Shown here: piece by piece, positions 13,040 to 64,000 of the stretch
How the letters are laid out: every line of letters begins with the position of its first letter
Numbering within the stretch: the stretch's first letter is position 1
Assembly (NCBI RefSeq): GCF_037975245.1
Contig: NC_092576.1
Location: 28,321,611 to 28,385,610, forward strand
Direction: 5' to 3'
Source of the DNA: Apostichopus japonicus
Lineage: Eukaryota > Echinodermata > Holothuroidea > Aspidochirotida > Stichopodidae
DNA: 64,000 nt
Translations under genes and position numbers: made by a program
The notes under the pieces: model-generated
What the model was told of the DNA's origin: nothing
The model's input: only the letters and a program-made list of their open reading frames with translations
Database searches by the model: none

Positions 13040-13062
13040 GTATTAATACATATATATATATA
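12937..13062. repeat. (TA)n / (TACA)n microsatellite at the left edge of unit 1
   Basis: Alternating TA followed by tatacatatacat-type repeats, running directly into the first base shared by the duplicated units (atgtatgaaatgaagtattcc). Confidence 0.9.
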
Positions 13063-14580
13063 TGTATGAAATGAAGTATTCCAACGAATATACTCTTCAT
13101 AAGTAAGTTTTTCTGACCAGTATCCATCCCAGAAAGTCGCATCAAATTAATCATTCTTGAATATCGCTTGAATATCATCTTAACAGTGATTCAATGATTC
13201 AATTATGCTGTTTGTCATCATCCATTGAAGGGCTCGCAAATGTGAATCTGATCCAATAACAGTAAACAGCTCTATTTATAATGCAAGTTTTCCGAAACTT
13301 TTCTCGGTTACACAGCTTGCAGTCGGACGCAAAAGCGATGTCGGTCGCCGAATTGATCGACAATGCTCATAGAAAATGGTAAATTTCATGAAACACAATT
13401 AAAGTATCATAAATGAAGTTTTGTTTCTCCGATAAAGCGTTGGACAGACATTAGGGCGAGATAGCGGTGAGGGGAGGGCGTGTTTTCTTTGCATTAAACG
13501 TTCTTTAATATTTGCACTTCATACAGATGCCCTTTTGTACCTGTTCTGCCCCTCATACAAAACAAAAACCTATTTGCTTCTCCTCCCCACTTGCCTCTTC
13601 CCATACTTTGCTAATTCTGGTGCAGCTACTGATAAGAAAACATGCTAAAAGAGACACTGAAGCATCCTTGATTGATTATGCATTACTTCTACTGTAGTAG
13701 GGAAACAGGGAGTGAGAAAAGAAGAAACCTGTTAGCAAGCTGCTTGTATAATGCAAAAAAAAAATACCTTTATAGGTAAATATGAACATTTTAGGGGACT
13801 TGACGTTTCCATGCTACCAGGATATTCTTTAGAGGCCAAATGAAGCGAAAACAAACTAACAAAACATTCCAATACAAAGATGACTCGATTTGTTCAAGTT
13901 AACGATCTGTCCATCTGTCTCTTAATATGTCCTTAGTTTGTTTCAGTTCATAATTTCTAGCAATGTCCGCGACACAAAACAGACAATTTTAAAAGTAGAA
14001 AATGGCTGAAAGGTTTGACTCTCTTCAACGTTATGGCCATAATTTTACAATAACTACACTAAAGATCTTGCTAATATGTTCTTACATCTCTGCCATAGCT
14101 CTACATTTAATGAGTTTGAAGGAGGGTGTGGTTGAAACATTGGTATGTGACAGGTACAATTTCATTTGGTTCTGTGACAGTATCTAGTGATACAACATTC
14201 GAATTTTGAATGAAATTACATGACTTGAAATGATAACAAGGACAGGTAATTGTTAGAAAATTCAGAAGTTTCCTATTGAAATAGCCTTATTGTTTTTACT
14301 GACCTAAACGTTAATAACTCGCTTCTATAATTCGTGCAAGCAGATTGTTGTTATCATAGATATCGCCAATGAAGCATCAGTATATCACTATTTGTGTATG
14401 TCACAAGACTTGGTAAAAGTTGCAACTAAACGTAAAGTAACGTTTTAAGACTAATGTTAAACATTAGCAAGATGAAAGCAAATTTAAGCTACCGAACTGA
14501 AAGCCAAAAGGAAAGAAAAGCTAAAAGAAAGAAAACTAATTGATTCTTTGGGATCCGCCTTATAGTATCCGCATCATGAC

Positions 14581-14586
14581 TTTATT
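14581..14586 (-). promoter_or_regulatory. poly(A) hexamer overlapping the stop codon of copy 1
   Basis: The last codons read CAG CAA TAA A on the minus strand, so AATAAA overlaps the stop. A pyrimidine-rich run follows some 40-70 bases on (gttttctttcttttagctttt). This would give a 3'UTR of only about 20-25 bases. The same arrangement is present in copies 2 and 4; copy 3 has ATTAAA overlapping its stop. Confidence 0.45.
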
Positions 14587-17500
14587 GCTGTCTCAAGCAC
14601 TTCTTGTAGTCTCTCCCTCCGAGCCAGACGCAAATCCCTTTCTTGTTCTTGCCGCATCTTGCAAAATCAATTTCACAATTCCCACCATCGCCGTAGCTGC
14701 CGAAATTGTAGCTGGCCGATTCCAGTGTACATATTCCTTCAGTTGAATCACAATAGTCGTATTGCCCGCATATCTGATTTGAAGAGAAAATCAGTAACTG
14801 TGATGTACGTGTGATTTTATTTCATGATTGCCTGAATAAAACATCGACGTCACACTGTTTACGGACCAGACACGTTGCAACACAAACCCGAAAAGTCGAT
14901 TTGTCATGTGGCTGAGAAATAAGTTACTGTGGTGTATTTGTGATTTCATTCCATGATTGCTCGTATATAATGTTGACGTTACAATGTTTTCTTCGTTCAT
15001 GGTGAATTTTAGCCGAGTCGTGTTTTATAACACTTCGCAGTATTTAATAATCAATAATCGTTGACGTAACCCTACGACAAGGCCTAATGCTTTTGATTTC
15101 AAACTTACGGAACATTTGTTGCAGTTCTTCTTATACTGACGTTTCAGCCCTTGAGACTGTCGCTTGGTGATCCGATCAACATTCCTGTAAGATCCGCATG
15201 GTTCGAGTTTCAATTGGTCATCCACTACATTGCCTACAAAGATGAGTCAAAAACAGGATTACGTATAAGAGTACATCTGACGATAAAATGTACGCACTGA
15301 TGATAAGGTTAGTAGAGTAGAAAGGAGAGGTACAGCAATATAAAAGGACCTTAAATGGAGCGTTCAATTTCACCCATATCCAACAATTGTTTGATTTGGG
15401 TGAGATTTCTTTTGAACATTTTTCACCTCTACATGCCCGGATATGACACTATCAGGCTTTCCCTTAATCATCCTGTTGAGGATTTCTTTGGAATGTTCAT
15501 TATGGTTAGTGTATCTGGAAAGAATCTGTATCGTTTTATTTTTCAATTCTTGTCATCCTGCTGGGAGAATTTTTACCGCATAACCTTTTTATAAACGATT
15601 TACTGTACACAATAATTTTAAGTAATATTCTGTCTGCCAAAAATACGCTTATGAACTATTTCCGATTGTAGTCACTGTTATTGGCTGGGTTTACATCCCT
15701 CTTAACCCCCCCCCCCCCAAGCTACACCATGGATTGGCGTCTGCTGGCGATTATTAAGCACATAAAGAAGAATATTGGTACTCTTATTGTTCTTTGCGGA
15801 ATACATCTCCGAGCCCAAGAGTTCAGGGGAACCTTCCTGCCAACACGCTGCAATGTTTCCAGAGCTAATTGTTGTCTCTTAGCGAGCTCACATTTTAGAG
15901 AGGAATATATTTGAAAGCCCCTATAGCTTTAAGGGGCCTGAAGTTTTGTTAACCTTGCGTTTTAGCAACAGGTGACGAAATACATGTTAACCACGTAATC
16001 TCAATTGGGAAGAAATTACAGCGTGTGATCTCACAATTTCCAAACGCACATTTTCCTTTTTTTCTCAAAAAGGTGCGGTATTTCAATACACTATTTAGTG
16101 CCACTGCCAGGCGAATATTTTTGGGTTTGTTTTGTATCAGGTACAAATATGTACATTACTGCTTTTTTCACGTTCCCGGTTTAATCTAACATTATAATTA
16201 AATCTAATAACAATTATTGTAACTACGCCTAAAGTCTAACATCAGGACGAACGGAACCGTGTTTTTCACTCTTACCCATTATAACATAATTCTGATTGAT
16301 AGAAAGATGGACGGTGCAATCAAGCTTTGTATGGTGAGTGACTATGATCTCGACCGTTGCTCCTTTGGCAGTCAAACCGTTTCTTTTATAGACCTTCTCA
16401 ATATCCACGGTGTAGACAATCTTCTTCGTTGCGTCAAAACCCACAGCTGAATGTAAACGAAACAAGGTAATAAAAAAAATATTTACTGTAACATAAAGCT
16501 GACCTACCTTGCGAAGTTCACGCAAATACAGGTCAATGATTGCCTGGGAATAAAGGGGCAGTTGGTTGGGGATCAAGGTGGTGGACGTATCGCAAAATTG
16601 AACAGTGACATAGATATGTGTTATGCAATTCTTCTTATTTTCAATACCGCTGGTTTGATTTTTTTCTTCTTCTTCATTACGTTATAAACAACCACTAACA
16701 GCCGATATACTTATAACATGAATCTTGTCATCCTTGCTGATCAGTCTGATCTCTAATCTTTTCATGGCAAATTCAGGAAAAGAAGTGAACGTAGATATTT
16801 TGGTTTTCTTAAAGGCAGATAACATATATTTTTGTACTTTTGATAATCTATCACGTGACCATCTATCAAAATTTAATACCCGAGGAAATTTCTATTTTTT
16901 TTTTTAATTTAAGCAAGTTTATACTGCGGATAGTTTTGAAGTAGAAGATTCACGCTAACTCAATCTTTACTTTTACTGGCGTAGACAAAAATGAATATGC
17001 TATTTTGTATCACCAACCCCCCTTTACCATTGTGGTTACGGTTTAATATTAAGTTTATAGTTTGGTAAGTTGTAACATTATTACTCCCAGCCCAAGCTAT
17101 TATTCTGTTAATTTTAGTACATTGTTTACGTTTAGTACACTCTTGAAAAGAAGTCATTATGATTTTGCAATCCATGTTCAAGCCCTCGCAGAAATGAATC
17201 TTCAAATCTTCATACAAATAATATATATGTCAATTGTTGTCGCTGAATAATGAGAGTGTTTGAGTGGTGTCACTAATAACAATGATGATGAGAGCATCAA
17301 ATTAATTACCATTTTGAAACAATTGCTTTCTATGTAACTCGCGAAACTGACATTTTAGAACAGACAACTCGGGTTGTGAATCAAACAAGATAGTATACAA
17401 ATTTTATCAACAGAATTGTGTCAACCGCGAATTGTCTTCCTCTGTGACCACTCGATGACCTTTCTGTAACATATTGACGTTTGTAGACCTGTTCTCTAAT

Positions 17501-19429
17501 AAAATAAAGAAATTGATAGACCACTCACAACGATTGTAAGATTGTATGATGTCATGAATATTTCGCCAAGTCTCAACTCTACGCAAACGATTTGTCTTTG
17601 ATACTCACAAGATGAAAAATCCGAAAAATAGTCAACAATGATCGATGGTAGGGATTGACTTAGCTGGTAGTGGTAATGTCGTTCATAGTCTATGAAAGTT
17701 TCATCCTTTGCTGTCACTCGGCCTTGTATGACTGTGAAAATTTAAAACGTGAATACTGAGTATTATTTCATGTTTCGACTGAAGTTAAACAAACGGAAAA
17801 TTACATGCAAACTGCCTCCACGCCCAATAAAACGTTACTATAGGTATCAATTGGCTTGTATCTACTTCGCTAAAGCCTTTTCATCGAGCAAATGTTGAAA
17901 ATAAAAATGCTTGACAAATAATAACCTTAGATAACTTTAGAATTTGGATATCAGTTGAACATATTTTCCACCTTTCAACCAGCTGGTTGCGTTGCAGGCT
18001 TTAATTCAAGCACCCTCAAATACGTTTCTACGGAAACGGTTTGGCAATAATGTTGCAGCAGATTTACATTGCCAAATTTGAGTTCCAAACAGATATAAAC
18101 ACTAAGATGAGACCATGACGTTTTTCCTTTTAAATATAGTAAACACACACTCGGTCTTCTTTACTTATCGCTGAAAATTTGTTTATTGCAAATTAAGTGA
18201 TGGAGTAAAGGCATTCTCCATGAAGCTTGTGTGCACACGGATAAGTCTTTATCTTATATCTTTCTTCAGTTTCTTCTAGTAAGGTTGTTCTAGTATAGTG
18301 AACTCAATGGTGAATAGTATAAATAAACAATAGTCAATGCAGCGAGTTCACCAATTTACTCAACTTAAATGAAAACCGAGTTATACAAGATACAAAACAG
18401 ACTATTTCATCTGTTTAAAAACTTTTTTATTTCACACATATTGGCATCACAAAACAGCAAACAACGTTTCTTGAGCATAACAAAATGACAAATGAGTGCT
18501 TGTAAAAGTTCATTAGTTAAGTCATCTAAATATCCAAACCATCTCTCAGATTTTGCAAGGCATTTAGGAAATACTCAGGAATATATCAAGTTTATAATAA
18601 TTTTAAACACACACCAACTAGTTTTTAAATGAAAGTGTATCTCAAATTATGGGCATCAAACTTTATAGACGTTCAGATGCATGATTTTTTATATTTTTTA
18701 TTGATACACCCCTTTAAAAGAAGACATCAATATCTTAAAGCAGCTTTTTGAGTTTGTTGGCAATTTTACAAACCTGTTGAATATTACTTAAGATAACATT
18801 GCGATTGATCACTAAGAAAATCACCTCGAATTTTCCACCAAATGAAAATTCAAAGGATAGTAATTATATAACTTGTTTTCAACTTTTATCATTAAACCGT
18901 CCAGAAAGCTTTCATAGTAAAAATGAAAACCCATTTAAAGACTGAATGGGAAACTCAGTTTTTTCGGAATTTTGCTTCACATTTTCTTAAATGAGAAGTA
19001 GCTATTACGTTGATGACGTATACTTATATAAGAGTTACAATAAAATGGAATCCACAATATTTCAATACTTTCAGTGGAGTGTTTTAAGAACTCACGACAT
19101 GAACGGTTAGTTTAGCTATTTATTTAAGCTACTTTTTCTCTCAATTACTTCAGACAGTCAATCAACGAATTTCAGATTTTTAAACCTGTGATACAGGCAC
19201 AATGCATCTAGCAAAAAGCACAACAAATATCTCCAAAGAAATATAATTAGAATGTCTGTAAAATGTAGTATGGAGGATAAATTGATTTAATAAATAACTC
19301 ACCATAATCAGATGTACAGTATTCCTCTTGAGGATGCACATCTGCACATATGCAGCACTGTATGTTACGAATGCTGGACATTACAAGTACAACACTCAGT
19401 ACACGGGAGAACCACATCGCCTTTGACAT
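14582..19429 (-). CDS. TIMP-family (tensilin-like) secreted protein, copy 1
   Basis: Tissue-inhibitor-of-metalloproteinase family: secreted netrin-like fold. Five exons on the minus strand: 19303-19429, 17609-17731, 16276-16446, 15109-15233, 14582-14773; all GT-AG, phases 1,1,1,0; 245 residues. Exon 1 gives a signal peptide and then CICADVHPQEEYC, matching TIMP Cys1, Cys3, His7-Pro-Gln and Cys13. Exon 2 gives VIQGRVTAKDETF, strand A, and a long aromatic/acidic A-B loop. Exon 3 gives KKIVYTVDIEKVYKRNG (strand B) and KLDC (Cys70 position). Exon 4 gives LEPC, then QGLKRQYKKNCNKC (Cys99, 124, 127 positions). Exon 5 is the Cys-rich C-terminal domain ending FARCGKNKKGICVWLGG. Fourteen cysteines follow Cys1 inclusive (family usually 12). 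Position 2 is Ile, not the usual Thr/Ser. Holothurian tensilin, a TIMP homologue that stiffens dermis, is the likeliest relative. Confidence 0.85.
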
Positions 19430-19620
19430 CTTCTATAACGTCTCAGAGAATTAAATCTAACTTTTTTTGGAATTGTAGTCTTGAGTCGTCAGCAACCACG
19501 GAATGGTTGCCTCAATCGTGTTCAAGGTTATTATGTGGCAAGGTATTTGATCAACAACCGATTCAATTTCTCTCTTTACCAGTAAGTGCCTATTCTTTTA
19601 CATAGAAGAAGGAAAACGCA
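19430..19620 (-). promoter_or_regulatory. conserved upstream segment of copy 1 (candidate promoter)
   Basis: The roughly 190 bases upstream of the ATG are closely conserved in copies 2 (37091-37260) and 3 (49117-49305), although nothing codes there. No convincing TATA box. Likely promoter and 5'UTR, but conservation may just reflect the duplication. Confidence 0.35.
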
Positions 19621-20639
19621 TTCTAGGCTAGCGAGAAATGACAGACCTGGGAATACACACCCTTTCCTCCCTGTGGTGTCATTACATTTTTACGACGGTT
19701 GTGTGAGTATAATAATAATTCTTCCTCATACGCTAGCGAGAGAGCGGGTAGCCTAACCATTGTCTAAGATGATTGGTTCTTCTACAGAAAATTTGTGGTA
19801 ATCGAATCATCTTGGTGCATAGCTGAATGTTAAATGGGTAAAACATTCACGTTATCGACAGCAAAACATAGATTATCGATCGATATACCCATTTAATTGA
19901 GAAATCTGGATTTTCAAACGAAACTAATTAGTTTGATAATCCTGGAATCTTGAACGATTACCCAATTATGTTATTAACGTAGATGTTTACACCAATAACC
20001 CAGTCAATATGATACAGCTGGATGTTCTATCGATATACCAATTATTTTGATAAACCTAAATTATAGACTAATATTCCCGGTCCTAGTTGTTTTAATAAGC
20101 CTTGAGTTTGAACGATATATCCAGTTACTAACAAATTTTGGGTTACTAGAGTTAGCCGTCATAAACAGCCGTTGTTTTAGCAGTACGCGTAGATAGATAG
20201 ACCGACAGACCAACAAACAAATAGATAGACAGATATTCAGATAGATAGTAACATAACCAAAAAAAACTTAGCTGTAATGCTCAGTTTCAGCTGTTCAATA
20301 GCTCACACCCCCAATTTGTACACCATTGTCATTGCCATTCGTGCCCTTGTTTGCGTCTAACTTTGCAGAGTATAAATACTCTGAACTCTCGCGAATACAC
20401 GGTCAGCTCATGGCGATCTTGTTGCAACACATTTCCTGTATAACCATGGCGACAGTAGACTTGCGGGTATCTCAACAACGTTCGAGGCAATAAAATCAAC
20501 CACAAATGATACTGCTCAGCTCCGTTACATTCTAATATACATTTATTAAGATGTAACAAAATCGCCGCCCCGTCTAGGCTTTAAAAGGTAATGGAAAATC
20601 TAATTGACTATGGATATCAACTGTAAGCAGAAATTAGTT

Positions 20640-29525: not shown

Positions 29526-29640
29526 GCAATAAATATATATATATATATAACTATGTATTAATATATATTAATATATATATATATATGTATTAATACATAT
29601 TCACATTTATAAATATATATTTATATATACATATATGTAT
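29526..29640. repeat. (TA)n microsatellite at the left edge of unit 2
   Basis: TA-rich run interrupted by gtattaatacatat, joining the unit sequence atgaaatgaagtattcc at about 29640. Confidence 0.9.
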
Positions 29641-31132
29641 GAAATGAAGTATTCCAACGAATATACTCTTCATAAGTAATTTTTTCTGACCCGTATCCAT
29701 CTCAGAAAGTCGCATCAAATTAATCCTAGTTGAATATCGCTTGAATATCATCTTAACAGTTCCATCGTTTCAATGATTCAATTATGCTGTTTGTCATCAT
29801 CCATTCATGGGCTCGCAAATGTGAATCTGATCCAATAACAGTAAACAGCTATATTCATAAAGCAAGTCTTTTCGAAATTTTACTCGGTTACACAGCTTGC
29901 AGTCGGACGCAAAAGCAATGTCGGTCGCCGAATTGATCGACAATGCTCATAGAAAATGGTAAATTTCATGAAACACAAGTAAAGTACCATAAATGAAGTT
30001 TTGTTTCTCCGATTAAGGGTTGGATGGACATAAGGGCGAGATAGCGGTGGGGGGGGGGGGGCTTGTTTCTTTGCATTAAACGTTCGTTAATATTTACACT
30101 TCATACATATGCCCTTTTGTACCTGCTCTGCCCCTCATACAAAATAAAAACCTCTTTGCTTCTCCACCCCACTTGCCTCTGCCTACACTTTGGTAATTCT
30201 GGTGCAGCTTCTGAAACGAAAACATGCTAAAAGAAGACACTGAATCATTCCTGATTGATTATGATTTACTTCTACTGTTGTAGTGAAACAAGGGGTGGGA
30301 AAAGAAGAAAACTGTTAGCAAACTGCTTGTATAATGCCAAAAAATACAATTTTAGGTAAATATGAACATTTTAGGGGACTTGACGTTTCCATGCTACCAG
30401 GATATTCTTTAGATGCCAAATGAAGCGGAAACAAACTTACAAAACATTCCAATACAAAGATGACTCGATTTGTTCAAGTTAACGATCCGACCATCTATGT
30501 CTCTTATGTGTCCTTAGTTTTTTTCAGTTTATAAATTCTAGCAATGTCCGCCACACAAAACAGACAATTTTAAAAGTAGAAAATGGCTGAAAGGTTTGAC
30601 TCTCTTCAACGTTATGGCCATAATTTTACAATAACTACACTAAAGATCTTGCTAATATGTTCTTACATCTCTGCCATAGCTCTAACATTAATGAGTTTGA
30701 AGAAGAGTGCGGTTGACATATTGGTATGTGACAGGTACATTTTCAATTGTTTCGAATTTTGACAGAAAAAACATGACTTGAAATGATAACAAGAACAGGT
30801 TATTGTAATAAAATTCAGAAGTTTGCTTATTTTTCTGTATTGAACTAAACGTTAATAACTCGCTCCTATAATTCGTGCAACCAAATTGTTCTTAGCATAG
30901 ACATCGCCGCTAACGCATCGGTATATCACTAGTTGTGCATGTCACAAGACTTGGTAAACGTTGCAACTAAAGGACAAGTACCGTTTTAAGGAAAACGTTC
31001 AACATTAACAAGATGAAAGCAAATTTAAGCTACCCAACTGAAAACCAAAAGGAAAGAAAAGCTAAAGAAAAGAAAACTACAGTTTCTAATTTATACTTTT
31101 GGTGGCCGCCTTATAGTATCCGCATCATGACT

Positions 31133-34100
31133 TTATTGCTGTCTCAAGCACTTCTTGTAGTCTCTCCCTCCGAGCCAGACGCAAATCCCTTTCTTGTTCT
31201 TGCCGCATCTTGCAAAATCAATTTCACAATTCCCACCATCGCCGTAGCTGCCGTAATTGTAGCTGGCCGATTCCAGTGTACATATTCCTTCAGTTGAATC
31301 ACAATAGTCGTATTGCCCGCATATCTGATTTGAAGAGAAAATCAGTAACTGTGATGTACGTGTGATTTTATTTCATGATTGCCTGAATAAAACATCGACG
31401 TCACACTGTTTACGGACCAGACACGTTGCAACACAAACCCGAAAAGTCGATTTGTCATGTGGCTGAGAAATAAGTTACTGTGGTGTATTTGTGATTTCAT
31501 TCCATGATTGCCCGTATATAATGTTGACGTTGCAATGTTCACTTCGTTCATGGTATGTTGTAGCCAAGTCGTGATTTGTAACACTCCGCATTATTTAATA
31601 TTCAATAATCGTCGACGTAACCCTGCGACAAGGCCTAATGCTTTTGATTACAAACTTACGGAACATTTATTGCAGTTCTTCCTATACTGACGTTTCAGCC
31701 CTTGAAACTGTCGCTGGGTGATCTGATTAACGGTCCTGTAATATCCGCATACTCCGAGTGTCAACTGGCCATCAACTACATCGCCTATAAAGATGAGCCA
31801 AAAACATGATTACGTATAAGAGCACATCTGACGATAAAATGTACATACTGATGTTAGGTATTAAGGAAAAAATAAATCCTAGGTCACAAAGTATTATTAT
31901 GATTATATACACCAACCTTCAAAACCTTTCTTAGCCACCCTATACACTCCTGGGTTATGTTTAGTTATATTTGAATTATAGGTCACATATTCCTTCATCA
32001 TGAAATTACAATATTTAAAACCGTGCGTAGAGAAAAGGGTTCAGATGTGGGAGTCGCACGTTGCTTTTTAAGAACCGTTTAACTGTTAAATGTATTACCG
32101 GTTACAGTTTGTGTAATGTAGTATGTAGTTATATCCACATCATATTACTTTAAACATTTGCTTCCATGCCTCTTTGTCTTAAGAGTAACTACTTACTTCC
32201 TGTTCATGGAGTTTCTCTTTGTTTGTTGTTCATTATTTAATAACGGAGCCCAAAGTAAATGAGCCGGAGCACACCCCAACGTAACATTTGTTTAACTAAA
32301 AGAAAGAACCCTCTGACGCTCACAATTGGACTATTTTGTAAGAAGAGTAGAAAGAAGCGGTGCAGCAATATAAAACGACCCTAAAAGGAGTGTCCAAATT
32401 CACACACACAACAATTGTTACATTTGGGTGAGATTTCTTGTGTACATTTTGCACCTCTACATGCCCGGATATGACACTATCAGGCTTTCCCTTCATCATT
32501 TTGAGGACAGGTTTTCCCTGTTTCCTTTTTGATGATTATTTTGGAATGTCCATTTTGGTCAGTATATATGGAAAGAATCTTAATGTTTTTTATTTATTTT
32601 TCAATTCTTGTCATCCTGCTGGGAGCAGTTTTACCGCATAAGCATGTTATCAATAATTCACTGTACACAATGATGTTAAGTAATATTCTGTCTGCCAATA
32701 ATAATTTAATTCAACCAACATCAGTCATGACAATTTGTTCAATTATTACAGATGTTTACTCAAACGCTTATGTACTATTTCCGATTGTGTTCACTGTAAT
32801 TGGCTGGGTTTACAGCCCCCTCCTATACCCCCTCCCCAAACTACACCATGGATTGGCGTCTGCTAGCGAATATTCAGCACAGAAAGAAGAATATTTATAC
32901 TCTTATTGTTCTTTGCGGAATACATCTCCGAGCCCAATGGTTAAGGGGGAACCCTCCTTCCAACACGCTGCAACGTTTCCAGAACTGCTTGTTGTCTCGT
33001 AGCGAGCTCAAATTTCAGAGAGGAATATATTTGAAAGCCCCTATAGCTGTAAGGTGCCTATACTTTTGTTAACCTTACGTTTTAGCACCAGGTGACGAAA
33101 CACAGGTCAATCACGTAATCTCAAAGTATGTCAATTGAAACGAAACCACAGCATGTGATGTCACAATTTTCAAACGCACATTTTCCTTTTATCCCAACAA
33201 GGTGCGGTATTTCATTACACTATTTAGTGTCACTGCAGGGCGAAATACTATTGGGTTTGTTTTGTATTACGTACATTAGGTACATTATGTACATTAATGT
33301 TGATTTAATGTCACTGTTTAATCTAACAATATAATTCAATCTAATAACAATTATTGTAACTACGCCTGAAATAAAACTTTCAAGACGTTCTACCACCAGG
33401 CAACGAAAGACAGGCCAACCACGTAATCTCAAAGTATTCTCGTTAGCACAAAACCACAGCATGTGGTGTCACAACTTCAACACGGTCGTTTTCCTTTTAT
33501 ACCAAATGTATGCGTAGTTCATTACACTATTTAGGGTCACAACCGGGCAAATATTATTGGGTTTGTTTTGTAGCTCGTACAAATATGGGTATTAATGTTG
33601 TTTTAGTGTCACTGTTTATTCTTAAAATATTCAATATTGATACGAATATTGCAGCCACTCCTATTGAGGAGAAAGGAACCGTGTTTTTCACTCTTACCCA
33701 TTATCACATAATTCTGATTGACACTAAGTCTGACGTTGCAATAAAGAAATGCTCCTTGGAGACTGACTATGATCTCGACCGTCGTTCCCGTGGCAGTTAA
33801 ACCGTTCCTTTTATAACTCTTTTCAATATCCACGGTGTACACAGTCTTACGTATGGCGTCAAAACCGACAGCTGATTGTAAAAGAAAGAAGGTAGTAAAA
33901 TTAATATACTGTAACAGAAAGCTGACAGTCCTTGTCAATTTTACGCAATTACAAGTCAATAATTGCATGGGAAAAGGACGTAAGAGGGGCAGTTGGTTGG
34001 GGATCATGTGTGGTGGACTTATCGCAAGATTGAACAGTGGCCTAGATAAGTGTTATGCAATTCTTCTTATTTTCAATTTCCGCAGGTTTATTTATTCTTT

Positions 34101-37090: not shown

Positions 37091-37260
37091 TTTCTATAAC
37101 GTCTCAGAGAATTAAATCTACTGTTTTGGGAACTCTAGTCTTGATTCGTCAGCAAACACGAAATGGTTGCCTCAATCGTGTACAAGGTTATTATGTGCCA
37201 AAGTACCTGTTCAACTACCGATTAAATTTCTCTCTTTACCAGTAAGTGCCTATTCTGTTA
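37091..37260 (-). promoter_or_regulatory. conserved upstream segment of copy 2 (candidate promoter)
   Basis: Counterpart of 19430-19620, with shared cgtgtacaaggttattatg-type and ctctttaccagtaagtg phrases. No TATA box seen. Confidence 0.3.
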
Positions 37261-43282: not shown

Positions 43283-43771
43283 GCTTTAGTGATCTTCTTA
43301 CTACCATAGCTCTTACATGAATGAGCCCGAGGGAATGTGCTCCTTAAACTTCGGTATGTGACAGATACATTTTCAATCGGTTTTTTTGGACAGTATCTAG
43401 TGATAAAAGATTCTAATTTTAAAAGAATAATAGAGTCTATAACAAAACCATATACTAGTAATAAAATTCAGAAGGTTGCAATGTAACTGGCCGTGTTTTT
43501 CTATATTAACCTAAACGGTAATAACTCGCTACTATAATTCGTGCAACCAAATTATTGTTATTATAGATATGACGCATCGGAATATCACTAGTTGTGCGGG
43601 TGATATGACTTGGTAAAAGTTGCAACTAAACGTTAAGTACGGTTTTAAGGAAATGTTGAACAATAACAAGATCAGGCAAATTTAAGCTACCCAACTAAAG
43701 CTAAAAGAAAAGAAAACTACAATGTGTAATTGATACTTTTGGGAGCCGCCTATAGTATCCGCATCATGACT

Positions 43772-46700
43772 TTAATGCTTTCTCAAGCACCTTCTGTAGT
43801 CTTTTCCTCCGAGCCAGTCGCAAATGCCTCCCTTGTTCTTGCCGCATCTTGCAAAATCAATTTCACAGTACCGACTATAGAAGTGGTCAAAATCCAGTGT
43901 ACAAATTCCTTTAGTTTTATCACAGTAGTCGTATCGCCCGCATATCTGATTTGAAGAAAAAGCAAATACAAAAATATGTAAATATAAATTGTTGGTTTTG
44001 CGACTAAGTAAACAGGTACTGTGATTAACTTGTAAATTTATTCCATGTCTGCCTGAATATAATATTGACGTCACACTGTTTACGAACCAGACACATTTTG
44101 TAACAGAAACCCCCATATTCGATTTGTTATACGACTGAGAAATAAGTTACTGCGATGTACAAGTGATTTCATTCCATGTTTACCCGTATAATATTGTTGA
44201 GGTCGCACTTTCTACATCGTTCATGGTAAGTTTCAGCCGAGTCTTGATTTTAAACACGCAGTATTTAATAATCAACATCGTCGACGTAACCCTATGACAA
44301 GGTCTCATGCTTTTGATAACAAACTTACTGAACATTCATTGCAGTTCTTCCTATACTGACGTTTCAGCCCTTTAAACTGTCGCTTGGTGATCTGATTAAC
44401 GGTCCTGTAATATCCGCATACTCCGAGTGTCAACTGGTCATTAATCACATCGCCTATAAAGATGAGCCAAAAACATGGTTACGTATAAGAGCACATCTCA
44501 CGATATAATGTACATACTGATGTAAGGTATTAAAGAAAAAATAAATGCTAGGTCACAAAGAATTATTACTATAAGTATATACACCAAAGCTTCATAACCT
44601 TTCTTAGTCACCCTATACACTCCTGGGTTATGTTTAGTTATATTTTAATTATACGTCACATATTCCTTCATCATGAAATTATCATATTTAAAACCGTGCG
44701 TAGAGAAATGGTTTCAGATGGGGGAGTCGTACTTTGCTTTTTAACAATCGTTAAACTGTTAAATTTATGACCGCTTACAATTTGTTTGAATGAACCATCT
44801 TACGCTCACAATTATACTATTTTGTTAGAAGAGTAGAAAGGAGCGGTGCAGCAATGTAAAAGGACCCTCGGGGTGTCCAAATTCAAACACACACAACAAT
44901 TGTTGGATTTGGGTGACATTTCATTTGTACATTTTGCACCTCAACATGCCCGGATATGACACTATCAAGCTTTCCGTTAATCATTTTTAGGACAGGCTTT
45001 CCCTGTGTCCTATAGAGGATTTCTTTTAAATGTCCATTTATGGCCAGTATAACTGGAAAAATGTTAAGTGTGTTTATTTATTTTTCGATTTTTGTCACCC
45101 TGCTGGAAGCGGTTGTACCGCATAAGCATGTTATAAATGAATGTACCGTACCCAACGATTCTAATTAATACCCAATGTGGGCCAAAAATAATTAAATTTA
45201 ACCAACATCAGTGACAATTTGTCCTATAATAACAGATGTATACTCAAGCGCTTTTGAAATATTTTTTTTATGTTTAATTTTATTGGCTGTGTTTAAGGCC
45301 CCCGCTCCCCTACCCTTGCTCCCTCCCCGAGTACATCATTTCGTGGTGTCTGCTAACGATTATTATGCAGAGAAAGAATATATTTGTTTTCTTTTTGTTC
45401 TTTTCGGAATACATCTTAGAGCCCTAATGGTGTCCAGGAGCATCCCTCCTTCCCAGTAGCTGCAAGGTATCCAGATCTGTTTGTTGTCTCGTAGCGAGTT
45501 CAAAGCAGAAAACCACATCTCAGAGATAATTTAAATTTCAATGGAGTGTATTTAAAAGTCCCTGTATTCTCCAGGGACTGATATATCGTAAACCTAACGT
45601 TCTAACCACCAGGCAACGAAAGACAGTTTAACCACGTAATCTCAAAGTATTCTCGTTAGCACGAAACCACATCATGTGATGTCGCAACTTCCACACGGTC
45701 ATTTTCCTTTTGTACCAAATGTGTGCGGTATTTCATTTCACTACCGGGCATATGTTATTGGGTTTTTTTTGTATAACGTACAAATATGGGCATTACTGTT
45801 TTTTTAGTGTCACTGTTTGTTCTAACAATATTCAATATATATACAAATATTGTAGCCACTCCTATTGAGGGGAAAAGGAACAGTGTTTTTCACTCTTACC
45901 CATTATCACATAACTGTAATTTATAGCAAGTCCGACGAAGCAATCAAGCGTTTCACTGTGTGTGACTATCTCGACCGTAGTTCCCTTGGCAGTCAAACCG
46001 TTTCTTTTATAACTCTTTTCGATATCCACGGTGTAGACAATCTTCTTTGCGTCAGGTGCTGATAGTTAGAAAAACAAGGCAGTAAAAAGACTATGCTGTA
46101 AAATAATTTTAATCTACCTTGCCAAGTTTACGCAAATACAGGTCAATGATTGCTTGGGAAAAGGACGAGGAAGGAGCAGTTGGTTGGGGATCATTCCTGT
46201 TAGACGTATCGAAGATTGAACAGTGGCATAGATCAATATTGTGCAATTCTTCTTTTTTTCAATACCACTGGTCTGATTGATTTTCTTCTTTTTGCTATAA
46301 AGAAACCACTAACAACCGGTGTATTTATCACTTTCATCTTGTCAACCTTGCTGATGGTTTTGATCTCTAATCTTTTCATGGCAAATTCAGGAAAATAAGT
46401 AAACGTAGAGAATTCTGTTTTCTTAAAGGGAGATACAAACATTTTTTTGGTACTTTTGATAACCAATCACATGACCAATTATCACGATTGAGTACCCGAG
46501 AATTGTTTACTTTTTATTTAAACAAGTTGATACTACGTATATTTATGTAGTAGAATATTCACGTTAACCCAATATTTTCTTCATCTGGCGTATTCAAAAA
46601 CAATGAATACGCTAGTTTTGTGTTACCAATCCCTCCTTACTATTGCGGTTGACTGTTTTACAGTAAGAGTATAGGTTGACAGTCGGTAAGTTGTAAGATT

Positions 46701-49116
46701 ATTATTCCAAGCCCAAGCTATTTATTTCTGAATTTGTGTACACTGATCACGTTAAGTACACTCTTGAAAAGGATTCATTATGATTTTGCTATTGTTGTAT
46801 TTGAGAATCAATGTATTACCCATACCGATCAAGACCTCGCAGAAAAAAAAAATGAAAAACTTGAGATGAATAAATAGACATGTAAAGTATTGTCGCTGAA
46901 TACTATGAGTGTTTGAGTGGTTTCAGTAATAAAAATGATGACGAGAGCATCAAATGTGTTACCATTTTCAGACGATTGCTTTCTGTCTGACTGGCCAAAC
47001 TTACATTTATCAGAACTTGACAGACGAGGTTGGTTGTAAATCAAACACTGAAAGGATGCACTGAACTCTTGGGCACCTCGTGCTAACGTGTAACACAACC
47101 ACACATGCTACTTTCGTTTAGCATGATGTTTTACCACCCATGAACTTTACACCCGCCCTGATGAAATTCTCTAAATTTAACCAAAGAGTATACTAATATT
47201 TATTAACAGAAATGTCAACCTCGCAACGACTTGATAACCTTTCTGTAACACGTCGACGTTTCTAGGCGTGTTCTCTTCTACATTAAGTTTTAGATAGACC
47301 AAATATTAACAATAATAGTTGTAAGATTTCATCGTCAAATCTTTAGAAATGTCATGAATATTTCGTTTTATCTCAACACAATACATAATAAGCTGTCTTT
47401 GATACTCACGACCTGTAAGATTCATGGCCGGTGGCAGGGGAGTTGTACTTTGCTGATACTGGTAATCTCTTTCGTAGTTTATAAAAGGTACATCTTGTGC
47501 TGTCACTCGGCCTCGTATGACTGTAAAATCAAGTATTATTTTATCTTTGGAGTGAAATTACACAAACGTTAAAATGACATGCAAAATGCTTCTAATGTCC
47601 AACGCAACTTTAATATAGGTATCAATTGACTTTAATCTAATTCGCTAAGGGGTTTTCATTTCACAACTGTCCGGAAAAACAAGCGTTTGACAACTTTGGA
47701 GAAATTCGGATATTGGATATCAGTTGAACATGATTTATTTGTTCAACCTTTTAACCAGCTGGTTTCGTTGTAGGTTTCAATAACTCTCAAATACGTTCCT
47801 ACAGTAACTATGTTTGTACTAACGTTGCCGCAGGTTTACTTTGCAAAATTTGAGATTCCATACAAACAGATATCAACACTTGAATGAGTTAAGAAGTCTT
47901 TCCTTTTGCACATAGTCAACACACAAACTCGCCCTACTTTACACCTGCAAGTCTAGCCGATATTCGTATCGCCATGTCATATTAATATAAATAACAAATT
48001 AAGTGTTGGAGGTAAAGACATTTTATATGAAAATTGCGTGTTTTCATGAGATAGTCTACATTCCTTTTCACTTTCATCTAATAACGTGGTTATAGTCTTG
48101 GCATTGCAGCAAGTTAACCTAGTCTACTCAACTTAATATGGCAAAAAAAATATGACTAATTGGATGCTTGTGATAGTACACTAGTTCAATGCATCAAAAT
48201 ATCTACACAATATTTTTGATTATGTAAGGTAAATTCCCTAAGAAATACTATAGAGTAAATACTAATTTTAAACACACACCGACTAGTTTTTAAATTACGC
48301 TGTATCTCGAATTATGGGCATCAAACTATATAGACATTCAGATGCATGATTTTTACAGTTCACCGATGCGCTCTTTGAAAGAAGCAATCAATTTCTTAAA
48401 GCAGCTTGTTGAGTCTGTTGGCAATTTTCCAAGCCTGTTGAATATAACTGAAGATCACGTTGCGATTGATCACTCAGTAAATCACCTCGATTTTTCCACC
48501 AAATGAATATTCATTTGATAGTAACTATAGAACTTTTATTTAATGTTATCATTATGCCGTCTAGAAAGCTTTCATAGTATCAAAGTAAACACATTTCAAG
48601 ACTACATGGGAAACTGAAAGTTGTTTTTTGGAATTTTGCTTCACGTTTTCTTAAATGAAAGGTAGCAATTAGTTAAGTTGATGACGTCTATTTGATACGA
48701 GAGTTTTAGCATGAAATAGTATCAAATATTGAAATACCGACTCAAAAGCTGCTTTTAAGGTCACATGAAATTACCTCTTACTTTAAGTTTTTTAAGACCT
48801 CACCATAACAACATTTAATTTAGCTATTTATTTATTCAGACGGCCAACCAACGTATTTTGGATCATCGGACCGGTTAAACACACAACATGCATCCAATAT
48901 AAAGCATAACGCATATCACCTAGAGTAATATCATTAGAGTATCTGTCACACATAGTACGAAGGATAAACTGATTAAATACATTACTCACCATAGTCAGCT
49001 GCACAATATACCTCTTGAGGATGCAGTAGTACACATGTGCAGCACTGTATGTTACGAATGCTGTACATTACAAGTACAACACTCAGTACGCGGGAGAACC
49101 ACATCGCCTTTGGCAT
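43772..49116 (-). CDS. TIMP-family (tensilin-like) secreted protein, copy 3
   Basis: Five exons on the minus strand: 48990-49116, 47410-47520, 45900-46058, 44329-44453, 43772-43945; all GT-AG, same phases; 231 residues, no defect. The mature start is CTCVLLHPQEVYC, with Thr at position 2 as in vertebrate TIMP-1 and TIMP-3. The exon 2 A-B loop is distinct and proline-rich (STTPLPPAMNLTG) and lacks the Asp-Tyr-Phe end of the other copies. Exon 3 is shorter at its 5' end (starts PDAKKIVYTVDIEKSYKRNG). Exon 5 replaces the Gly/Ser/Tyr loop of the others with DFDHFYSRYC, but all seven cysteines remain. The most diverged member, possibly the most specialised or the oldest. Confidence 0.85.
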
Positions 49117-49305
49117 CTTCTATAACGTCTCAGAGAGATAAATCTACTTATTAATATTTTCGGGCAACTCTAGTCTTGAGTCGTCAGCAAAAACGCATTG
49201 GTTTGCCGCAATCATGCACAAGGTTATTATGTGCCAAAGTACTTGTTCAACAACCGATTAAATTTCTCCCTTACCAGTTAGTGCATATTCTGTTACATAG
49301 AAGAA
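49117..49305 (-). promoter_or_regulatory. conserved upstream segment of copy 3 (candidate promoter)
   Basis: Counterpart of 19430-19620 with a few small indels (shared tgcacaaggttattatgtgc and cagttagtgcatattctg). Confidence 0.3.
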
Positions 49306-50194
49306 AAAGAAAACACATCGTATGGCTAGCGAGAAATGAACACAACCTGGGGCTTCATTTGAATTGTTACGACGGTACAGGAAAAAGAAACAAATGTGAT
49401 AAATGTGAAATTCGAAATGAATGCACTAGTAGTTGTGAGGATTCATCCTACATAAGAAAGATCAAAACAAAATATTCGTCCTTATATGTTAGCGTAATAG
49501 CAGGTAGCCTTATTACATGTTGTAGTATCATTGGATCCCCCTCGGTGCATAGCTAAATGTTATATGAGTATATCTCAAGAAAAATTCAAGTAAACGACCG
49601 CAAAAAATACATCTGGATTTTCAGACGAAATACAACAATTATTTTGAAAACTTTGAATCTTAAACGATATACCCAATTATGTTATTAACGTAGATGTTTC
49701 CACTAATTACTAAGTCTATATAATAAAGCTGGATTTTCTATCGATATACCAATTATTTTGATAAACCACACAGCCGCATATATATATACAAATAGATGCA
49801 TACGCAAAAGCCTAAAACTTAGCTATAATGCTCAGTTTCAGTTGGTCAACAGCTCACACACCCATTCTTTTATAAACTCGTACCCCATTGTCATTTGTGC
49901 TCTTGTTTGCGTCTAACTTCACAGGCAAATATTCTGAACTCTCGCGAATGCACGGTTTGGCTCATTGCGCTCTTGTTTCAACACATTTCCTGTATAACCC
50001 TGGCGACAAAAGATTTGCGGGTATATCGAAAACGTTCGAGGCAATAACATCACACCACATATGATAAAGCTCAGCTCCGTTACATTCTAATATACATTTA
50101 TTAAGATGAACACAATCGCCGTCGCGTCTAGGTTTTAAATGGCGATGAAAAATCTAATCGACTATGGACATCAACTGTCATTTTTGTCCTTGCT

Positions 50195-57885: not shown

Positions 57886-57990
57886 TATATACATATATAT
57901 ATATGTATGTGTATGTGTGTGTATGTATATGTATATATATATATGTATGAAATTTGTTTTTGTAAATTATATATATATGTATATATGTAA

Positions 57991-58040
<50 letters not shown>

Positions 58041-58041
58041 G

Positions 58042-58088
<47 letters not shown>
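57825..58088. repeat. (TA)n microsatellite at the left edge of unit 4
   Basis: Long TA tract with gtatgtgtatgtgtg and a twice-repeated phrase tatgaaatttgtttttgtaa (57947 and 58085), then the unit sequence attccaac-aatatactcttc. Confidence 0.95.
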
Positions 58089-58089
<1 letters not shown>

Positions 58090-61000
58090 AAATTTGTTTT
58101 TGTAAATTATCCGTTAGTATTCCAACTAATATACTCTTCATAAGTAAGTTTTCATGACCAGTATCCATCCCAGAAAGTCGCATCATGTTAATCATTGTTA
58201 ATATCGCTTGAATATCATCTTAACAATTCTATCGTTTCAATGATTCAATGAAGTTGTGTGTCATCATCATTCAAGGGCATGTAAATGTGAATCTGATCCA
58301 AAAACAGTGAACCGCTGTATTTATTAAGCAAGTTTTCTGAAACTTACTCGGCTACTCAGCTTGCAGTCGGACGCAAAAGAATCGATCGATATTGCTCTTG
58401 GAAAATGGTAAATTTCATGAAAGGAAAATAAAGTATCATGAATTTAATTGTGTTTCACCAATGAAGCGTTAGATAGAGATTAGGCCGAGATAGCGGTGGA
58501 GGAGGGGGGCTGTTTCTTTGCCTGAAACGTTCCCGGTTATTTACATAACATTTACAAAACAAAAACCTCTTTGCTTCTCCACCCCACTTGCCTCTTCCCA
58601 TACTTTGGTAATTCTGGTGCAGCTTCTGAAAAGAAAACATGCTCAAAGAAGACACTGAATCATTATTGATTGATTATGCTTTACTTCTACTGTAGTAGTG
58701 AAACATGGAGTGAGAAAAGAAGAAAACTGTTAGCAAACTGCTTATATAATGCAAGAAAAGACCTTTGTAGGTAAATATGAACATTTTTGGGGACTTGACG
58801 TTTCCATGCTACCAGGATATTCTTTAGAGGCCAAATGAAGCGAAAACAAACTAACAAAACATTCCAATACAAAGATGACACGATTTGTTCAAGTTCATCT
58901 GTCCATCTGTCTCTTAATATGTCCTTAGTTTGTTTTAGTTCATTATTTCCAGCAATATCCGCGACACAAAACAGAGAGTTTAAACTGTATAAAAATGGCT
59001 TAACGGTTTGACTCTCTTGAGGGTTATGGCCATACTTTTACCATTACTACACTACAGATCTTGCTAATATGTTCTTACATCTCTCCCATAGTTCTAACAT
59101 TAATGAGTCTGAGGGAGGGTGCGGTTGAAACATTGGTATACAGGTACATTTTCAATTGGTTTTGTGACAGTATCTTATGATACAATATTCGAATTTTGAC
59201 AGAAATTACATGACTTGAAATGATAACAACATAGATATCGCCAATAAAGCATCAGTATATCACTATGTGTGTATGTCACAAGACTTGCAACTAAACGTAA
59301 AGTAACGTTTTAAGACTAATGTTAAACATTAGCAAGATGAAAGCAAATTTAAGCTACCCAACTGAAAGCCAAAAGGAAAGAAAAGCTAAAAGAAAAGAAA
59401 ACTAATTGATACTTTGGGAGCCTCCTTATAGTATCCGCATCATGACTTTATTGCTGTCTCAAGCACCTCTTGTAGTCTCTCCCTCCGAGCCAGACGCAAA
59501 TCCCTTTCTTGTTCTTGCCGCATCTTGCAAAATCAATTTCACAATTCCCACCATCGCCGTAGCTGCCGAAATTGGCCGATTCCAGTGTACATATTCCTTC
59601 AGTTGAATCACAATAGTCGTATTGCCCGCATATCTGATTACAAGAGAACATCAGTAACTGATTCACGTGTGATTTTATCTCATGACTGCCTGATTATAAC
59701 ATTGAAGTCACACTGTTTACGGACCAGACACATTGCAACAGAAACCCCAAAAGTCAGTCGGCTGAGAAATAAGTTACTGTGGTGTATTTGTGATTTCATT
59801 CCATGATTGCCCGTATATAATGTTTTCTTCGTTCGTGGTGAATTTTAGCCGAGTCGTGTTATATAACACTTCGCAGTATTTAATAATCAATAATCGTTGA
59901 CGTAACCCTACGACAAGGCCTAATGCTTTTGATTACAAACTTACGGAACATTTGTTGCAGTTCTTCTTATACTGACGTTTCAGCCCTTGAGACTGTCGCT
60001 TGGTGATCCGATCAACATTCCTGTAAGATCCGCATGGTTCGAGTGTCAATTGGTCATCCACTACATTGCCTACAAAGATGAGTCAAAAACAGGATTACGT
60101 ATAAGAGTACATCTGACGATAAAATGTACGCACTGATGATAAGGTTAGTAGAGTAGAAAGGAGAGGTACAGCAATATAAAAGGACCTTAAATGGAGCGTC
60201 CAAATTCACGCATATCCAACAATTGTTTGATTTGGGTGAGATTTCTTTTGAACATTTTTCACCTCTACATGCCCGGATATGACACTATCAGGCTTTCCCT
60301 TTATCATCCTGTTGAGGATTTCTTTGGAATGTTCATTATGGTTAGTGTATCTGGAAAGAATCTATATCGTTTTATTTTTCAATTCTTGTCATCCTGCTGG
60401 GAGAATTTTTACCGCATAACCTTTTTATAAACGATTTACTGTACACAATAATTTTAAGTAATATTCTGTCTGCCAAAAATACGCTTATGAACTATTTCCG
60501 ATTGTGTTCACTGTTATTGGCCGGGTTTACATCCCTCTTAACCCCCCCCCCCCCCAAGCTACACCATGGGTTGGCGTCTGCTGGCGATTATTAAGCACAT
60601 AAAGAAGAATATTGGTACTCTGATTGTTCTTTGCGGAATACATCTTCGAGCCCAAGAGTTCAGGGGAACCTTCCTGCCAACACGCTGCAATGTTTCCAGA
60701 GCTAATTGTTGTCTCGTAGCGAGCTCACATTTTAGAGAGGAATATATTTGAAAGCCCCTATAGCTTTAAGGGGCTTGAACTTTTGTTAACCTTGCGTTTT
60801 AGCAACAGGTGACGAAATACATGTTAACCACGTAATCTCAATTGGAAAGAGACTACAGCGTGTGATCTCACAATTTCCAAACGCACATTTTCCTTTTTTT
60901 CTCAAAAAGGTGCGGTATTTCAATACACTATTTAGTGCCACTGCCGGGCGAATATTTTTGGGTTTGTTTTGTATCAGGTACAAATATGGACATTACTGCG

Positions 61001-64000
61001 TTTTTCACGTTCCCGGTTAAATCTAACAATATAATTAAATCTAATAACAATTATTGTAACTACGCCTAAAGTCTAACATCAGGACGAACGGAACCGTGTT
61101 TTTCACTCTTACCCATTATAACATAATTCTGATTGATAGAAAGATAGACGTTACAATCAAGCTTTGCATGGTGAGTGACTATGATCTCGACCGTCGTTCC
61201 TTTGGCAGTCAAACCGTTTCTTTTAAAAACCTTCTCAATATCCACGGTGTAGACAATCTTCTTCATTGCGTCAAAACCCACAGCTGAATGTAAACGAAAC
61301 AAGGTAATAAAAAAAAATATTTACTGTAACATAAAGCTGACCTACCTTGCGAAGTTCACACAAATACAGGTCAATGATTGCCTGGGAATAAAGGGGCAGT
61401 TGGTTGGGGATCAAGGTGGTGGACGTATCGCAAGATTGAACAGTGACATAGATATGTGTTATGCAATTCTTCTTATTTTCAATACCGCTGGTTTGATTTT
61501 TTTCTTCTTCTTCATTACGTTATAAACAACCACTAACAGCCGATATACTTATAACATGAATCTTGTCATCCTTGCTGATCAGTCTGATCTCTAATCTTTT
61601 CATGGCAAATTCAGGAAAAGAAGTGAACGTAGATATTTTGGTTTTCTTAAAGGCAGATAACATACATTTTTGTACTTTTGATAACCTATCACGTGACCAA
61701 CTATCAAAATTTAATACCCGAGGAATTTTTGTTGTTGAAATTTAAGCAAGTTTATACTGCGGATAGTTTTGAAGTAGAAGATTCACGTTAACTCAATCTT
61801 TTCTTTTACTGGCGTAGACCACAATGAATATGCTAGTTTGTATCACCAATCCCTTTTTACCATTGTGGTTAACGGTTTAATATTAAGTTTATAGTTTACG
61901 CTTGGTAAGTTATTACATTATTACTCCAAGCCCAATCTATTATTCTGTTAATTTTAGTACACTGTTTACGTTTAGTACACTCTTGAAAAGAAGCCATTAT
62001 GACTTTGCTATTATTATTAATCTTGCAATCCATGTTCAAGCCCTCGCAGAAATGAAACTTTAAAACTTCATACAAATAATATACATGTCAATTGTTGTCG
62101 CTGAATAATGAGAGTGTTTGAGTGGTGTCACTAATAACAATGATGACGAGAGCATCAAATTTATTACCATTTTGAAACAATTGCTTTCTATGTAACTCGC
62201 GAAACTTACATTTTAGAACAGACAACTCTGGAATCAAACAAGATAGTATACAAATTTTATCAACAGAATTGTGTCAACCGCGAATTGTCTTCCTATGTGA
62301 CCACTCGATGACCTTCTTTGTAACATATTGAAGTTTGTAGACGTGTTCTCTAATAAAACTGATTTTTTTGATAGACCACTTACAACGATTGTAAGATTGT
62401 ATGATGTCATGAATATTTCGCCATATCTCAACTCTACGCAAACGATTTGTCTTTGATACTCACAAGATGAAAAATATGAAAAGTAATCAGCAATGATCCA
62501 TGGTAGGGATTGACTTGGTGGTGGGGATTGACTGAGCTGGTAGTGGTAATGTCGTTCATAGTCTATGAAAGTTTCATCCTTTGCTGTCACTCGGCCTTGT
62601 ATGACTGTGAAAATTTAAAACGTGAAGACTGAGTATTATTTCATGTCTCGACTGAAGTTAAACAAACGGAAAATTACAAGCAAACTGCCTCCACGCCCAA
62701 TAAAACGTTAATATAGGTATCAATTGGCTTGTATCTACTTCGCTAAAGCCTTTTCATCGAGCAAATGTTGAAAATAAAAATGCTTGACAAATAATTACCT
62801 TAGATAACTTTAGAATTTGGATATCAGTTGAACATATTTTCCACCTTTCAACCAGCTGGTTGCGTTGTAGGCTTTAATTAAAGCACCCTCAAATACGTTC
62901 CTACGGAAACGTTTTGGCAATAATGTTGCAGCAGATTTACATTGCCAAATTTGAGTTTCCATACAAACAGATATAAACACTAAGATGAGACCATGACGTG
63001 TTTCCTTTTAAATATAGTAAACACACACTCGGTCTTCTTTACTTATTGCTGAAACATTTTATATTAATGGCAAATTACAAATTAAGTGTGGAAGGTAAAG
63101 ACATTCTCCATGAAGCTTGCGTGCACACGGAATAGTCTATATCATACATCTTTTTTCAGTTTCTTCTAGTAAGGTGGTTCTAGTATGGTGAACTCAATGG
63201 TAAATAATTGAAATAAACAACAGTCAATGCAGCAAGTTCACCCATTTACTCAACTTAAATGAACTACGAGTTATACAAGATGCAAAACAGACTATTTCAT
63301 CTGTTTAAAAACTTTTTTATCTCAAACATATTGACATCACAAAACAGCAAACATCGTTTCTTGAGGTAACAAAATGACAAATGAATGCTTGTAAAATTTC
63401 ATTAGTTAAGTCATCTAAATATCTAAACCATCTCTTAGATTTTGCAAGGTATCTAAGAAATACTCAGGAATATATAAAGTATATATTAATTTTAAACACA
63501 CACCAACTAGTTTTTAAATGATGCTGTATCTCAAATTATGGGCATCAAACTTGATAGACATTCAGATGCATGATTTTTTCATTTTTTATTGATACACCTC
63601 TGTAAAAGAAGACATCAATATCTTAAAGCAGCTTTTTGAGTTTGTTGGCAATTTTCCAAGCCTGTTGAGTATTACTTAAGATAACATTGCGGTTGATCAC
63701 TAAGAAAATCACCTCGATTTTTCCACCAAATGAAAATTCATAGGATAGTTACTATAGAACTTGTATTCAACTTTTATCATTAAACCGTCTAGAAAGCTTT
63801 CATAGTATAAATGAAAACCAATTTAAAGACTAAATGGGAAACTCAAAGTTGTTTTCGTAATTTTGCTTCACATTTTCTTATATGAGAAGTAGCTGTTACG
63901 TTGATGACGTATACTGATATGAGAGTTACAATCAAATGGAATCCAAAATATTGCAATACTTTCAGTGGAGTGTTTTAAGAACTCACAATATGAACTGTTA
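58088..64000 (-). repeat. segmental duplication unit 4 (cut by the window edge)
   Basis: Closest to unit 1 throughout, including a shared lack of the intron-3 stretch present in units 2 and 3. The right end of the window corresponds to about 19110 in unit 1. Confidence 0.9.
59448..64000 (-). CDS. TIMP-family (tensilin-like) secreted protein, copy 4, partial
   Basis: Exons 2-5 on the minus strand: 62464-62604, 61113-61283, 59945-60069, 59448-59633; GT-AG, same phases as the other copies. By comparison with copy 1, exon 1 (signal peptide and Cys1-Cys13) should begin about 175 bases beyond the right edge. Exon 2 carries six extra residues in the A-B loop (SQSPPPSQSLP), from a short repeat of ggggattgact. 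Exon 4 differs from copy 1 by one base in 125 (Lys to Thr). Exon 3 differs at nine bases of 171, six of them changing residues. Exon 5 lacks two residues (SASYNF becomes SANF). All cysteines are kept; about 206 residues are encoded in view. Confidence 0.85.

Follow-up and report, generated by a model that had tools for sequence, protein, structure and literature searches.

The window examined here, a stretch of 64,000 nt from the holothurian Apostichopus japonicus (contig NC_092576.1, positions 28,321,611 to 28,385,610, read on the forward strand), contains a tandem array of genes of the TIMP family (Table 1). Repeat finding and self-BLAST, for which matches longer than 150 bases were listed, were used to set the limits of four direct repeat units at ~12.94-19.72, 29.53-37.37, 42.5-49.36 and 57.98-64.0 kb (U1 to U4 below). 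A preliminary description of this DNA had reported four direct tandem units with a five-exon gene, three of the copies being complete and open, and both statements were confirmed by self-BLAST and exon modelling: U1, U2 and U3 run from ATG to stop, and exons 2-5 of U4 are in view. The coding strand, which that description did not give, is minus for all four genes. The three complete genes consist of five exons with cumulative intron phases 1,1,1,0. All four copies are free of internal stops, every intron is GT-AG (with a weak donor, GTCAAT, after exon 2 in U1 and U4), and in U1, U2 and U3 an in-frame stop lies directly upstream of the ATG. Exon lengths differ between copies by multiples of three throughout. 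When gaps were counted at the DNA level, 17 of the 19 pairwise coding gaps were multiples of three, compared with 117 of 529 in noncoding DNA. The two others (11 and 8) both occur between U1 and U3, and we think that they reflect aligner placement, since the exon lengths differ only in threes. A permissive tblastn of the window, run with E values as high as 50, revealed no further exon that was convincing (best E 0.71). In each of the four copies the stop codon (at 14582, 31133, 43772 and 59448) is overlapped by a sequence resembling a polyadenylation signal, AATAAA or, in U3, ATTAAA, which would indicate either a very short 3' untranslated region or a fortuitous match.

The protein search against TIMP that the preliminary description had proposed placed all four predicted proteins above the curated cut-off of Pfam family PF00965 (49.7-80.6 bits versus 23.1; E 3e-22 for U1, 1.6e-22 for U2, 1.1e-21 for U3 and 5e-13 for U4), and the three complete copies cover profile positions 2-183 of 183. 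The TIMP N-terminus (CxCxxxHPQ) described earlier in three copies was also borne out: C-x-C-x(3)-HPQ is present in 3/3 copies with exon 1 in view, and in alignments with TIMPs from PDB residue 26 of U1, U2 and U3 aligns with the mature Cys1 of human TIMP-1, -2 and -3. A further cysteine (Cys25) stands directly before Cys26, giving QCC-x-C. The mature chain has 14 cysteines in every complete copy, and the mature cysteines align across all copies. By reading of the alignment of U2 with TIMP-2, a cysteine stands in the same column for 10 of the 12 cysteines of TIMP-2, and for the other two (128 and 138) at most two residues off; all 12 TIMP cysteines appear to have counterparts, from which the fold is predicted to be held. 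One extra cysteine of the C-domain may correspond to column 572 in the alignment of Clouse et al., where Cys is reported at 70% in protostomes, asteroids, crinoids and holothuroids, and not in chordates (PMC4807446). The window proteins thus resemble vertebrate TIMP-1, -2 and -3 (PF00965) in having C-x-C-x3-HPQ after a signal-like segment, 12 cysteines in order, an N- and a C-domain and an aligned Cys1. They differ from them in two extra C-domain cysteines, in an AB loop that is longer than that of TIMP-2 in the alignment, in VIQGR or VIRGR for VIRAK, and in Ile, Ser or Thr at residue 2. Membership of the TIMP family and tandem duplication are well supported.

An allelic or haplotig artefact was considered as an origin of the repeats and judged unlikely, because U1, U2 and U4 have one 3' breakpoint in common (~12,945, 29,530 and 57,985) while the flank beyond U1 (1-12,942) has no match to the flank beyond U4 among the self-BLAST matches longer than 150 bases. 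U1 and U4 are recent sisters (intron Kimura two-parameter distance 0.02-0.07), 93% identical across 4.8 kb of gene and 83% across the last 1.3 kb of the unit, and U1 differs from U2 by 13-20% in introns 1-3. Conversion was tested on polymorphic sites ungapped in all four units, with 5000 permutations. None of these reached the 75-site run shared by U1 and U2 at exon 5, and the sole mismatch in the tract falls in a column that is gapped elsewhere; none reached the agreement of U2 with U4 in the same exon. A shorter run, of 10 sites in exon 4, is common to U2 and U3 (p 0.002), and weaker runs in noncoding DNA have p 0.01-0.05. Exon 5 looks to have been homogenised between U1 and U2 by gene conversion. 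Intron 2 of U2 contains a tandem duplication of ~283 nt, 94% identical (35118-35538; self-BLAST). Similar low-complexity, self-complementary repeat tracts adjoin unit ends at 37553-38065 and 57806-58102 (self-BLAST), and were possibly involved in the duplication.

The copies differ from one another in a particular place. It has been described that residues 1-5 and 67-72 of TIMP-2 fill the active-site cleft of MMP-10, the AB loop being a side contact (PMC3779175), and residues 105-110 of U1 match TIMP-2 residues 67-72 in an ungapped alignment. An untargeted five-codon scan of the coding sequence of the three complete copies gave residues 103-107 as the top window (score 8), followed by 104-108, 105-109 and 27-31, which tied at score 7; these windows fall on the two TIMP-2 segments just named. 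In permutations the top window had p 0.02 over the whole coding sequence, and the top window of exon 1 had p 0.016. We defined the ridge as residues 2, 4 and 5 together with the five residues before the fourth mature cysteine (8 positions). It can be seen that 7/8 ridge positions vary, compared with 64/171 other mature non-cysteine positions (Fisher 0.007), and that 6/8 differ in all three complete copies, compared with 6/171 elsewhere (Fisher 6e-7). Within the N-domain the corresponding counts of three-way differences are 6/8 and 6/118 (p 5e-6). Every one of the 20 codon differences counted on the ridge between pairs of copies is a replacement. At the nucleotide level the ridge differs between copies by 0.42-0.54, versus a mean of 0.19 over 4431 gap-free noncoding columns, and the signal peptide is much more conserved than the ridge (0.044). 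Matched noncoding blocks reach the value of the N-terminal segment in 5.6% of cases, that of the connector in 1.3% and both jointly in 0.3% (p 0.003); for blocks away from gaps the figures are 4.4%, 0.3% and 0.09% (p 0.0009). By reading of the alignment, four of the six three-way positions outside the ridge (51, 57, 66 and 73) lie within the AB loop or at its edge, and the other two (111 and 113) beside the C-connector, so that on our mapping each of the 12 three-way positions (of 179) belongs to a protease-contact segment or adjoins one. The counterpart of residue 73 in TIMP-2 is Ile40, described as buried in MMP-10 (PMC3779175), although the alignment of this loop is gapped.

Taken together, these results make it probable that the window holds an array of at least four genes for secreted TIMPs, which differ in the metalloproteinases that they inhibit or in how strongly they inhibit them. 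By analogy with the family, the signal peptide would be removed to leave a mature chain headed by Cys1. The C-x-C ridge, tied by disulphide to the C-connector loop, would then occupy the cleft of a metalloproteinase active site, chelating the zinc. On the model of TIMP-2 (PMC3779175), the amine and carbonyl of Cys1 would lie on the metal, residue 2 in the S1' pocket and the C-connector on the non-primed side. Since residue 2 is Ile, Ser or Thr and the connectors HTKLD, GAFLY and SETLD are unlike one another, different targets or strengths are to be expected. The disulphide fold would have been kept while the residues touching the protease changed faster than the surrounding noncoding DNA, possibly under positive selection, and exon 5, which encodes the C-terminal domain, would have been homogenised by conversion while the ridge exons 1 and 3 remained distinct. 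A more tentative extension, possible though not the likeliest course, is an arms race: one secretion signal and disulphide scaffold would be kept, the C-domain held uniform by conversion and the active-site loops driven apart, to give a repertoire of inhibitors whose varied targets would extend beyond host matrix enzymes, perhaps to foreign metalloproteinases such as those of pathogens, parasites or venoms.

Several points weigh against differing target ranges. The Cys at -1 makes the signal-peptide cleavage site uncertain, and cleavage before Cys26 is what the family would predict. The ridge positions were taken from the published structure once the scan had already drawn attention to them, eight positions are a small sample, exon 1 is visible in three copies only, and the copies are related by descent, which makes the tests non-independent. 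The N-terminal segment, taken alone, is marginally above noncoding DNA (reached by 5.6% of 12-nt blocks, or 4.4% away from gaps). The recent pair U1 and U4 are separated by 8 substitutions, of which one falls on the ridge (106) and three close to it (73, 111 and 113), exon 1 of U4 being outside the window. Vertebrate TIMPs are reported to have Thr or Ser at residue 2 (PMC8467561), the residues found here in U3 and U2 respectively; U1 has Ile, and could be a weak inhibitor. Long shared runs are found in noncoding DNA too, between U1 and U2 at 14103-13980 (33 sites, 0/5000 permutations) and between U1 and U4 at 16826-16608 (61 sites, p 0.003); therefore exchange has likely occurred along the unit and is not special to exon 5, and the uniformity of exon 5 in U1, U2 and U4 goes back to one or two events. 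Gene-wide ratios of replacement to silent change (dN/dS) give no sign of positive selection (NG86 0.45-0.68 over six pairs; YN00 ~0.7-1.3), so the case for selection comes from the ridge.

This absence of a gene-wide replacement excess, together with the small sample and the fact that surface loops are often variable, is what would be expected if canonical TIMPs were simply drifting, with constraint relaxed after duplication and the variable loops happening to be the contact loops. Drift alone would not be expected to carry the ridge beyond the divergence of noncoding DNA, and the lack of internal stops in any copy, the exon lengths differing in threes and the alignment of mature cysteines in all copies also argue against it. 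We regard this explanation as unlikely. Alternatively, the genes may encode TIMP-like proteins that moonlight in a role other than inhibition, such as a growth-factor-like, immune or structural one. For some echinoderm TIMPs an action independent of metalloproteinases has been suggested (PMC8467561, PMC10053443), and Ile at residue 2 of U1 would be compatible with such a role. Nevertheless, C-x-C and HPQ are intact in 3/3 copies and the variation is concentrated on the inhibitory ridge, and loss of inhibition in favour of another role seems distinctly improbable.

The identity proposed in the preliminary description was that of tensilin, a TIMP-derived protein that binds the glycosaminoglycans of collagen fibrils, cross-links the fibrils through its C-terminus and stiffens mutable connective tissue. 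This identity was the first to be examined, and two criteria from the literature led us to set it aside, so that of the earlier interpretation TIMP homology and tandem duplication stand and tensilin identity does not. Tensilins are described as having two residues between the first two cysteines (Dolmatov 2021, PMC8467561), whereas the window proteins have one (C-I/S/T-C, 3/3) between the cysteines aligned to TIMP Cys1 and Cys3, assuming a mature chain that starts at Cys26; cleavage before Cys25 would give Cys25-x-x-Cys28, a tensilin-like spacing. The C-terminus of tensilin is described as a basic run followed by an acidic run, and loss of its last 15 or 40 residues is reported to have abolished fibril aggregation (PMC10053443). 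The window proteins end 15 residues past the last canonical TIMP cysteine (U1 numbering), and no acidic run after basic residues was found in the last 40 residues of any of the four. Compared with the tensilins of C. frondosa and H. forskali, therefore, they share the TIMP-like N-domain and lack both the two-residue spacing and the charged tail. The TIMP-type N-domain and cysteine layout would suit a tensilin, and tensilins are reported to be duplicated in some holothurians, with four in E. fraudatrix (PMC8467561, PMC8391186). In addition, a named tensilin, Ef-tensilin3, is described with a structure typical of TIMPs (PMC8391186), a case which makes the boundary between TIMP and tensilin partly a question of phylogeny. 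Since the pattern of change among the copies also points to protease contacts, we hold it very unlikely that these genes are tensilins. Secreted TIMPs that differ in their targets remain the preferred explanation.

Table 1. Coordinates of the repeat units, TIMP genes, ridge segments and shared tracts in the window.
Feature	Position	Strand	Details	Basis
Repeat unit 1	12943..19720	minus	3' breakpoint common to units 2 and 4	self-BLAST
Repeat unit 2	29529..37375	minus		self-BLAST
Repeat unit 3	42490..49360	minus	most divergent; 3' end approximate, shorter than others	self-BLAST, unit alignment
Repeat unit 4	57981..64000	minus	runs off window; nearest to unit 1	self-BLAST
TIMP gene U1	14582..19429	minus	exons 19429-19303, 17731-17660, 16446-16276, 15233-15109, 14773-14582; 228 aa; N-terminus C-I-C	exon model, Pfam, PDB TIMPs
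TIMP gene U2	31133..37090	minus	exons 37090-36964, 35980-35909, 33871-33698, 31784-31660, 31324-31133; 229 aa; N-terminus C-S-C	exon model, Pfam, PDB TIMPs
TIMP gene U3	43772..49116	minus	exons 49116-48990, 47520-47449, 46058-45900, 44453-44329, 43945-43772; 218 aa; N-terminus C-T-C	exon model, Pfam, PDB TIMPs
TIMP gene U4	59448..62604	minus	exons 2-5: 62604-62533, 61283-61113, 60069-59945, 59633-59448; exon 1 past base 64000	exon model, Pfam (profile positions 37-183)
N-terminal reactive ridge, U1 codons 26-30 (TIMP residues 1-5)	19340..19354	minus	U1 C-I-C-A-D; U2 C-S-C-E-Q; U3 C-T-C-V-L	
C-connector ridge, U1 codons 105-110 (TIMP-2 residues 67-72)	16316..16333	minus	U1 H-T-K-L-D-C; U2 G-A-F-L-Y-C; U3 S-E-T-L-D-C; U4 H-A-K-L-D-C	
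Likely conversion tract, U1	14555..14959	minus	includes the whole of exon 5; agrees with U2 31106-31510 at 75 polymorphic sites in a row; 405 nt, one mismatch at 14703	
Partner tract, U2	31106..31510	minus	within exon 5 agrees with U4 too (27 polymorphic sites, 0/5000 permutations)	

Ten other open reading frames of the window were scanned against Pfam, and one gave a match above the cut-off (TPR repeats). It belongs to a region at 389-2510 (minus strand) with TPR-repeat reading frames resembling IFIT proteins (TPR_19 E 1.4e-6; IFIT1 and IFIT5 among the PDB matches). The region contains an in-frame stop (2003-2001) and, near 1000, one more open reading frame in a different phase; it is either an intron-bearing gene or a pseudogene. 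Reading frames at 51266-53761 (minus strand) look by eye like a decayed element of the long interspersed nuclear element type, and the three that were scanned had no Pfam match above the cut-off. A transfer RNA (tRNA)-Cys-like gene at 38074-38147 (minus strand) overlaps the edge of a repeat that self-BLAST also finds at 27392-27612, and is possibly a tRNA-derived short interspersed nuclear element.

Expansion of TIMPs in echinoderms and bivalves, tandem duplication in bivalves and variation of residue 2 among echinoderm TIMPs are already in print (PMC8467561, PMC4807446, PMC10755359). Like the array described here, the echinoderm expansions (Clouse 2015, PMC4807446; Dolmatov 2021, PMC8467561) have many copies per species, with HPQ in at least 70% of copies and a residue between the first cysteines that varies within species. 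They were presented as trees of transcriptomes and gene sets, and the available parts of these papers describe no tandem-unit anatomy, conversion tract or comparison of ridge with rest. The TIMP arrays of the bivalves Pteria penguin and Magallana gigas likewise expanded through tandem duplication, and the available part of that report makes no claim of contact-surface divergence (PMC10755359). In the same metazoan survey five exons were commonest (60 of 165 genes) and 25 of 41 echinoderm genes had four; therefore the exon number of the window genes points to no phylum. Tandem SERPINA genes are a comparable case of inhibitor copies with functional variation, on the serpin and not the TIMP fold (PMC12646145). 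Among the titles and abstract openings listed in literature searches, none dealt with gene conversion in TIMP arrays or with selection focused on their ridge, and a term search of the text available for a 2026 preprint on the Holothuria glaberrima genome (PMC13228809) found no mention of TIMP. We would say, with due reserve, that a resolved array in which conversion of the C-domain exon is combined with divergence focused on the ridge is apparently new.

The abundance of TIMPs in echinoderms is usually ascribed to the remodelling and mutability of connective tissue (PMC8467561), and the reason why echinoderms and some bivalves have so many is not settled. The present case cautions that not every TIMP-like gene of such animals is a tensilin. 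If the copies differ chiefly at their protease contacts, the expansion concerns target range, and the array would then be a natural panel for testing which ridge residues set specificity.

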